Source of the DNA: Candidatus Nitrosothermus koennekei
Lineage (GTDB): Archaea; Thermoproteota; Nitrososphaeria; Nitrososphaerales; Nitrosocaldaceae
Direction: 5' to 3'
DNA: 35,477 nucleotides
Assembly (NCBI GenBank): GCA_013538715.1
Contig: JACAFH010000003.1
Span: 1-35,477 of the forward strand
The notes below the pieces were generated by a model. It worked only from the letters and a program-made list of their open reading frames with translations, was not told where the DNA came from and ran no database searches. Within the stretch, counting starts at the first letter, position 1. Each line of letters starts with the position of its first letter. The translations under genes and the position numbers were made by a program. Positions 20,125 to 24,776 of this stretch are shown here, piece by piece.

Positions 20125-21432
20125 ATGCTTAGTATAGGGATAGATGATACCGATAGTAGTGAAGGTATGTGCACTACATACCTAGTCTTTAAGCTGATCC
20201 AATTTCTTATTAAAGAGAATGCAACCATAGTAGATTATCCACTATTGATAAGACTTAACCCAAATATCCCATGGAAGACTAGAGGTAATGGTGCATTATG
20301 TATTAGAGTTAAAGATATTGACGAGGATCGCCTCTTCATGCATCTAAAATACTTGATAGATACTTATGCTCATGTTGGTAAGAGATCAAATCCTGCAGTG
20401 GTAATATTCTCTGCAATAGATGATGAGGTTAGAGAATTTAGTAGGAAGGCATTATATACATTACTTAAGAGAAGCGAGGGATTCAGATTAGCAGAAAAGG
20501 CTGATAGAGTATACTTTAAAGGTAATGGTCAAGGTTTGATAGGAGCAATAGCAGCTGTTGGAAGTGTCCTTAACGAACATACATATGAATTATTGGCATA
20601 CCGTTATGCTAATAACTGTAAGAGGAAGAGGATATTATCTAAAGAAGATGTTATAGCAATGGATAAAGCAACATATCCATACACATTTAATAATTATGAT
20701 TATAATCATAATAGAATATTATTAACCCCCCATGGAAAAGATCCTGTATTCTTAGGTATAAGGGGTGAAGAACCAAATATATTAATACGAGCAATCAAGA
20801 TGCTGAAGATAGAAGAAGAGTTAGAAGGTTATACTATATTTAAGAGCAATCAAGGTACAAACGCTCATCTTACGAATAGAATAGAGACTCTTAAACCATA
20901 CACTTCTGGTTATATTGAAGGAAGTATAGAAGAATTATATGCTCACAAAGGAGGTCATACATTCTTTAGCATAAATGGTATAAGATGTGCAGTTTATGAA
21001 CCAACTGGATTATCTGCTGTAGCACAAAGATTAGTTAAGGGGGATATAGTTAGAGTTGGTGGGGGTATTAGAAAAGCATCAAAGAATCATCCAAGAGTTT
21101 TAAATGTTGAGTATATACAAGTATTAAAGTTAACGGATATTAAATTAACGCTAAATCCCATCTGTAGTTGTGGAAAGAGACTCAAGTCAGCTGGAAGGAA
21201 TAAAGGATATAAATGTGAGAGTTGCGATTTTAAAGGCTTCAAAGAAAGGGAAGAGGTTATAGTTAAGAGGGAAGATATAGATGAAAGGCTTTATATACCT
21301 ACACCAAAGGCTCATAGACATCTAACTAAACCACTACAAAGATATGGATTAAAGAGCAAGGATTATCCTCTCATTGATGGTTGGTATGTATCTAATCATG
21401 TAAAAGTAGCGGGGGGTGGATTTTCGGCTTGA
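20125..21432 (+). CDS. tiaS: tRNA(Ile2) 2-agmatinylcytidine synthetase TiaS
   Basis: TiaS attaches agmatine to C34 of the CAU-anticodon tRNA-Ile so that it reads AUA only. The protein has 435 aa, close to the family length. The N-terminus MLSIGIDDTDSSEGMCTTYL carries the GIDDTDS signature of the ATP-dependent catalytic domain. The middle includes NQGTNAHL, followed by an OB-fold region (about 250-330). A C-terminal zinc ribbon has Cys347, Cys349, Cys364 and Cys367. It follows the Lrp-domain gene by 2 nt. Its last 26 nt are antisense to the 3' part of the initiator tRNA-Met gene, including part of that tRNA's T-loop intron, which is an unusual gene overlap. Confidence 0.95.
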   Translation: MLSIGIDDTDSSEGMCTTYLVFKLIQFLIKENATIVDYPLLIRLNPNIPWKTRGNGALCIRVKDIDEDRLFMHLKYLIDTYAHVGKRSNPAVVIFSAIDDEVREFSRKALYTLLKRSEGFRLAEKADRVYFKGNGQGLIGAIAAVGSVLNEHTYELLAYRYANNCKRKRILSKEDVIAMDKATYPYTFNNYDYNHNRILLTPHGKDPVFLGIRGEEPNILIRAIKMLKIEEELEGYTIFKSNQGTNAHLTNRIETLKPYTSGYIEGSIEELYAHKGGHTFFSINGIRCAVYEPTGLSAVAQRLVKGDIVRVGGGIRKASKNHPRVLNVEYIQVLKLTDIKLTLNPICSCGKRLKSAGRNKGYKCESCDFKGFKEREEVIVKREDIDERLYIPTPKAHRHLTKPLQRYGLKSKDYPLIDGWYVSNHVKVAGGGFSA

Positions 21433-21434
21433 CT
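21421..21434 (-). other. Predicted tRNA intron 3 (T-loop, about 59/60) of tRNA-iMet
   Basis: Fourteen nt (AGTCAAGCCGAAAA) split TTCGAA from the T that closes the T-loop. A runs allow the boundary to shift by up to 2 nt. T-loop introns near 59/60 are known in some archaea. Confidence 0.8.
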
Positions 21435-21456
21435 TTCGAACCACCGTTCTGCGGGT

Positions 21457-21470
21457 TTCTTACTAGAAGT
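21457..21470 (-). other. Predicted tRNA intron 2 (canonical 37/38) of tRNA-iMet
   Basis: Fourteen nt (ACTTCTAGTAAGAA) interrupt the anticodon loop between A37 and A38. CTT pairs with AAG inside the insert, and the cuts TA^A and AA^A fall two bases into 3-nt bulges, matching a relaxed bulge-helix-bulge. Confidence 0.85.
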
Positions 21471-21501
21471 TATGAGCCCGCCGGGATACCTGACTTCCCC
21501 A

Positions 21502-21529
21502 CCCTTATAGGATAATCTCGCTACGGAAT
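21502..21529 (-). other. Predicted tRNA intron 1 (position 7/8) of tRNA-iMet
   Basis: These 28 nt separate G7 from T8. The boundary can slide by up to 3 nt because of G runs. TTCC near its 5' end can pair with AAGG near its 3' end, giving a 4-bp core like that of a relaxed bulge-helix-bulge. Exact cut sites are not certain. Confidence 0.8.
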
Positions 21530-21556
21530 CCCCGCTATACTTTCCATCTACAAGCA

Positions 21557-21568
21557 GTATATTAAATC
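21557..21568 (-). promoter_or_regulatory. TATA box of the tRNA-iMet gene
   Basis: The minus strand reads GATTTAATATAC, centred about 26 nt before the first tRNA nucleotide. Transcription would start at or near A1. Confidence 0.5.
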
Positions 21569-24647: not shown

Positions 24648-24687
24648 AATATATTTGAGAAGGAGAGTAGAGATGGATCGGTTAGAT

Positions 24688-24776
24688 GGGCCGGAGCTGA
24701 TACGGCCAATCGTCTAGCCTGGTAGGATGTTCCCTTGGCATGGGAGAGGTCGTGGGTTCAAATCCCACCCGGTCCA
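24688..24776 (+). tRNA. tRNA-Ala (anticodon GGC) with a predicted intron at position 7/8
   Basis: Acceptor GGGCCGG (24688-24694) pairs with CCGGTCC (24769-24775), giving the G3:U70 pair that identifies alanine tRNAs. The remaining arms are regular: D-arm 24712-24728, anticodon stem TTCCC/GGGAG with loop TTGGCAT (anticodon GGC), variable AGGTC, T-arm GTGGG-TTCAAAT-CCCAC and discriminator A24776. CCA is not encoded. The 15 nt at 24695-24709 sit between the acceptor stem and T8 and must be removed to restore a 74-nt tRNA. Taking the bases directly before T8 as the acceptor gives no pairing, which supports the intron. Confidence 0.92.
24695..24709 (+). other. Predicted non-canonical intron (position 7/8) of tRNA-Ala
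   Basis: The 15-nt insert AGCTGATACGGCCAA contains a perfect 4-bp mini-hairpin GCTG-ATA-CGGC (one G:U). The bases GGA and CAA flank it like the 3-nt bulges of an archaeal bulge-helix-bulge motif. A strict cut after the second bulge base would give a 14-nt intron and one extra base, so the right boundary is uncertain by 1 nt. Confidence 0.75.

Follow-up and report, generated by a model that had tools for sequence, protein, structure and literature searches.

Archaeal bulge-helix-bulge (BHB) tRNA introns are short, have 3-nt bulges around a 4-bp helix, occur several per tRNA alongside two endonuclease paralogues, and include thaumarchaeotal cases (PMC4090602, PMC8450103). Archaeal tRNAs with several introns, or with introns in the acceptor region, are already known (PMC8450103, PMC4090602, PMC12397907), and an endonuclease of alpha2beta2 type has been reported for thaumarchaea (PMC3218864, PMC4090602). 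The permuted initiator tRNA of Thermofilum pendens is joined at 59/60 and 37/38 and has a promoter that lies unusually far away (PMC3218864), and in the split tRNAs of Nanoarchaeum and others leader pairing brings the BHB together (PMC4033280, PMC3218864). The locus described here resembles all three systems and also departs from each of them. Unlike in the known BHB introns, its first intron interrupts the acceptor stem itself, at 4/5, and is accompanied by a complementary strand in the leader, which we refer to as the guard strand. Unlike in Thermofilum pendens, the exons are in normal order and the long leader contains the guard strand. Finally, pairing in split tRNAs joins two transcripts, whereas here it takes place within a single transcript, between the leader and the 3' acceptor strand.

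The window that we analyzed is the first 35,477 bp of a 185,164-bp contig, from the genome (34 contigs, 1.458 Mb) of a hot-spring archaeon of the Nitrosocaldaceae. We parsed tRNAs from stretches of the genome with our own cloverleaf/BHB parser, which misreads some genes with long introns or variable arms (the Trp-like L185 and L227, L184, L187) as well as several initiator genes of relatives (for example L107, L110-L114, L120-L123, L133-L136, L138). On the minus strand of the window lies an initiator tRNA-Met gene with three short introns (Table 1). Taking the three inserts out of 21407-21536 leaves a perfect and complete initiator cloverleaf with a 7-bp acceptor stem and a T-arm of GGTGG/CCACC. 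The marks of an initiator are all present, namely A1:U72, the anticodon stem GCGGG/CCCGC with its GGG/CCC block and the CAU anticodon, and the spliced sequence closely resembles initiator tRNAs of relatives. This bears out the identification made in the earlier note, and the BHB parse likewise agrees with its two 14-nt inserts at 37/38 and in the T-loop (59/60). Introns 1 and 3 have four paired positions in the central helix, and intron 2 has one C-A mismatch there. ARAGORN and Rfam at its gathering score both miss the gene, Rfam even at E=10. The earlier note had also raised the matter of a second, intronless initiator gene: none was found, and the genome, which is 96% complete, has a single occurrence of the initiator motifs. 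A split or permuted tRNA was rejected, as all exons are in normal order within 116 nt. The convergent gene at 20125-21432 of the window encodes TiaS (tRNA-Ile2 agmatidine synthetase), and its reading frame shares 26 bp with the 3' end of the initiator tRNA gene, which is on the opposite strand.

Table 1. Features of the initiator tRNA-Met gene, in 5' to 3' order on the minus strand, and of the tRNA-Ala(GGC) gene of the same window
Feature	Position in window	Strand	Basis or remark
TATA-like box TTTAATAT	21559..21566	-	consensus scan; ~22 nt upstream of the guard strand; candidate promoter element only
Leader guard strand AGCGGGG	21530..21536	-	pairs 7/7 with 3' acceptor strand CCCCGCU
Leader linker ATTCCGT	21523..21529	-	ends in GU, which contributes to the central BHB helix of intron 1
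Exon 1 AGCG, mature positions 1-4	21519..21522	-	parse and relatives
Intron 1 AGATTATCCTATAA, 14 nt, 4/5	21505..21518	-	BHB GUAG/CUAU, 3-nt bulges; compensatory change in relatives
Exon 2 GGGTGGGGAAGTCAGGTATCCCGGCGGGCTCATA, positions 5-37, CAU anticodon	21471..21504	-	parse
Intron 2 ACTTCTAGTAAGAA, 14 nt, 37/38	21457..21470	-	one C-A mismatch in central helix
Exon 3 ACCCGCAGAACGGTGGTTCGAA, positions 38-59	21435..21456	-	parse
Intron 3 AGTCAAGCCGAAAA, 14 nt, 59/60	21421..21434	-	perfect UUCG/CGAA central helix
Exon 4 TCCACCCCCCGCTA, positions 60-73, CCCCGCU and discriminator A	21407..21420	-	parse
Guard strand GGATCGG of tRNA-Ala(GGC)	24675..24681	+	pairs 7/7 with CCGGUCC; A3 versus exon G3
tRNA-Ala(GGC)	24688..24776	+	exon 1 GGGCCGG 24688-24694, intron AGCTGATACGGCCAA 24695-24709, exon 2 24710-24776

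By sequence alone, a first insert of 28 nt can slide anywhere from 4/5 to 7/8 because of runs of G. The earlier note had placed it at 7/8, with AGCGGGG (21536-21530) as the mature 5' acceptor strand. No BHB with cuts at 7/8 can be drawn in the initiator gene, since there is no central helix in that register, and the 3-4-3 BHB GUAG CG^A GA...UC CUAU AA^G sets a 14-nt intron at 4/5 instead. The same 4/5 BHB is found in six Nitrosocaldus species and in G007, a genome of another family, where the introns measure 18-59 nt. In one species the inner helix GGCAU/AUGCC has become GACAU/AUGUC, which is a compensatory change. With a first intron of 14 nt at 4/5, all three introns are 14 nt long, the mature 5' end lies at 21522 rather than at 21536, and AGCGGGG falls in the leader. 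Alternatively, this upstream AGCGGGG could be the true 5' exon, from which a 28-nt intron would be removed at 7/8, or at 4/5 without a change of the 3' splice site. The mature sequence in this genome would be identical, and a TATA-like box is at roughly the spacing required by a tRNA that begins with the upstream copy. The parser scores the 28-nt intron at 4/5 slightly above the 14-nt one (32.1 and 31.8, respectively), and the choice therefore rests on the relatives, whose upstream copy is often AGUGGGG, and on other tRNAs. In five of the six Nitrosocaldus genomes, an exon at the upstream copy would replace C3:G70 with U3:G70, and the compensatory helix beside the splice sites belongs to the shorter intron. 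These observations, together with those on alanine and glutamine tRNAs reported below, make the 28-nt intron highly improbable.

Most likely, then, the initiator gene bears three 14-nt introns (4/5, 37/38 and 59/60) that are predicted to be removed by a BHB splicing endonuclease. The genome encodes two endonuclease paralogues, each with both Pfam domains; the earlier note had suggested looking for EndA and a paralogue. The first (L009) can be aligned from end to end with archaeal endonucleases of known structure and has retained Tyr, His and Lys; the second (L010) has no His at the aligned site. As judged from these alignments, the pair would fit the alpha2beta2 type. Two or three introns are predicted in the initiator gene of 37 of the 45 parsed relatives, some of these parses being rough, and multi-intron initiator tRNAs are ordinary in this order (Nitrososphaerales). 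The earlier view that multi-intron tRNAs are rare outside Thermoproteales does not hold against these counts, nor against the thaumarchaeotal cases already known (PMC8450103). When we searched 400 genomes of the class for the pattern of the 4/5 initiator intron, which is blind to introns of the length seen in several Nitrosocaldus, we found it only in Nitrosocaldaceae and G007, plus G678, where it gave no tRNA parse.

The guard strand offers the 3' acceptor strand a second complementary partner, and the initiator is not the only gene preceded by such a strand. Comparable leader elements lie ahead of tRNA-Ala(GGC) (24675), two serine and two glutamine tRNAs, all with an intron at positions 4-10. 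The tRNA-Ala(GGC) gene has a 15-nt intron at a true 7/8 position, with the guard strand six nt upstream of exon 1; Rfam scores this gene low, with a mismatched 5' strand placed at 24703. G3:U70 is the identity pair of alanine tRNAs. Since A3 replaces G3 in the upstream copy, which would lose this pair, the copy is unlikely to be the mature strand, and this speaks against reading upstream copies as exons. So do the glutamine genes, where the 10/11 intron lies after the inner copy and no BHB can be drawn that removes that copy and joins the leader copy straight to U8.

To quantify the association, we compared each leader with the 3' acceptor strand of its own gene. Eight of the 41 tRNAs parsed in this genome have introns at mature positions 4-10. 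The best leader pairing is 7/7 for the initiator, Ala, Ser(UGA), Gln(UUG) and Gln(CUG), 6/7 for Ser(GCU), 5/7 for the elongator Met and 3/7 for the Trp-like L185. Thus, six of the eight early-intron genes pair at 6/7 or better, five of them at 7/7, compared with none at 7/7 among the 33 other tRNAs (mean 4.2). The early-intron mean of 6.1 exceeds the 4.6-4.7 obtained with shuffled leaders or with the acceptor strands of other tRNAs (maximum 5.5; P-value = 1.5e-4, label permutation). The two serine genes (L177 and L179, UGA and GCU) have the leader string GCGCTGGGATA in common despite differing introns and bodies. Three probable tRNA-Trp genes (L185, L227 and L252), whose anticodon is misread by the parser, have a long intron with ATGATG and CTGA-like strings. 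Some archaeal Trp introns carry a box C/D RNA, with strings like these.

We also detected guard strands in other genomes. In N. cavascurensis they precede Gln(UUG), the initiator and a CAU tRNA whose intron lies at 8 (6/7), with a partial one at Ser(UGA) and none at the early-intron Ala and elongator Met. The latter two, together with the early-intron Trp in our genome (3/7), are counter-examples to the guard rule. In another family of the order, two genomes carry a guard strand at the Ala orthologue (GGACCGG in G007, GGATCGG in G023) and at Gln, and G007 also has one at the initiator. A search for doubled AGCCCGG in 398 Thermoproteota genomes returned 26 genomes, a few of the matches not being early-intron Gln genes, compared with one match for the reversed control pattern. 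When Gln genes with a 10/11 intron were sought in Thermoproteota without using the guard strand, we found 21 places in 18 genomes and 11 genera. Each of the 21 leaders reaches at least 6/7, and 20 reach 7/7. The corresponding figures for Gln genes with no 10/11 intron are 6/30 and 1/30 (P-value = 5.5e-12, Fisher test, whose significance is overstated because Gln genes are related by descent and the counts are not independent). Two Gln(UUG) genes (L288 and L289) have an exact AGCCCGG leader copy and introns parsed at 22 and 38, with none at 10/11.

The leader copy might instead be a functionless relic of the origin of the intron, for example of a short tandem duplication. The copies are exact in Gln, and the copy lies only a few bases from the exon that it resembles. 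A relic would not be expected to keep its pairing at 6/7 or better in all 21 Gln genes across 11 genera, nor to change mostly in ways that preserve pairing, as seen for Gln (AGCCCGG/GGCCCGG), the initiator (AGCGGGG/AGUGGGG) and Ala (GGAUCGG/GGACCGG). Initiator guard strands of relatives read AGUGGGG, AGCGGGA or GGCGGGG. Moreover, the Ala copy pairs through bases unlike those of the exon, both here and in the two genomes of another family, and linkers vary in length and sequence among guard-bearing genes. In the 21 Gln leaders the copy ends at the end of the acceptor stem, and the next base is never U, unlike in the tRNA. Retention across the phylum, mostly pairing-preserving changes, variable linkers and a copy that ends with the stem argue for constraint on the guard strand, and we consider a relic unlikely.

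These data suggest how the guard strand may act. For introns from 4/5 to 10/11, the central helix of the BHB draws on the 5' acceptor strand or adjacent bases and competes with the acceptor stem. With its 7 nt complementary to the 3' acceptor strand, the guard strand would hold the latter in the precursor, leaving the true 5' strand free for the BHB with the ends of the precursor still kept in a stem. After excision of the intron, the true 5' strand would replace the guard strand, and the leader would then be cleaved off together with it, presumably by RNase P. We infer this role, and the final strand exchange, from the anatomy, conservation, early-intron association and predicted folding effect of the element. 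The explanation that we favor, and hold to be reasonably probable, is that the guard strand ties up the 3' acceptor strand and thereby lets the 5' strand form the BHB.

Predicted folding gives an indication of the effect of the leader. In ViennaRNA ensembles at 65 C, natural leaders raise the probability of the complete BHB over shuffled ones in 21 of 21 Gln genes, with a median of 12-fold. In this genome and that of N. cavascurensis, both Nitrosocaldaceae, they do so for most early-intron genes. Absolute probabilities are nonetheless low in most genes. The effect ranges from none, for the N. cavascurensis Ala and for its initiator compared with poly-A at 37 C, to six orders of magnitude for Ser(GCU), from 1.2e-6 with a poly-A leader to 0.93 at 37 C. 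In precursors, the predicted pairing of the guard strand with the 3' strand is 0.60-0.90 at 65 C, and that of the true strand at most 0.09 where it is able to pair. This predominance, and the possible extension of the initiator pairing into the trailer in Nitrosocaldus, would also be expected if the guard strand had another role on the 3' acceptor strand, such as protecting the 3' end, offering RNase Z or RNase P an acceptor-like stem before splicing, or ordering the steps. Such a role does not alone predict the rise in BHB formation and appears rather doubtful as the explanation; it is compatible with the release of the 5' strand for splicing, and both may hold. After splicing, the two-dimensional model still favors the guard over the true strand in most genes, and tertiary folding, trailer removal or leader cleavage must therefore drive the exchange. 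Strand exchange, which this model leaves unexplained, is the weakest step of our proposal.

In a crude consensus scan with several ambiguous cases, the median distance from the TATA-like box to the mature 5' end is 38.5 nt in early-intron genes and 27 nt in the others, a spacing consistent with transcripts that include the guard strand.

Leader elements of this kind go together with 5'-proximal introns in many archaea and probably help the excision of these introns. A broader claim, towards which we lean only slightly, is that Thermoproteota tRNA genes with introns at 4-10 encode a guard strand that mimics the 5' acceptor strand, releases it for the BHB and gives way to it after splicing. This would be a cis-acting strand-exchange step of tRNA maturation, conserved throughout the phylum. 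We found no mention of such a leader element in the literature searched, which included few subscription papers; the element may be new, although its absence from these papers argues only weakly for this. Introns in or beside the acceptor stem create a folding conflict, as the same strand is needed both for splice-site recognition and for the acceptor stem. If our reading is true, a complementary strand encoded in the leader resolves this conflict and explains how such introns are tolerated in essential tRNAs. It would also provide a rule for annotating true 5' ends where general tRNA finders overlook or mislocate them.
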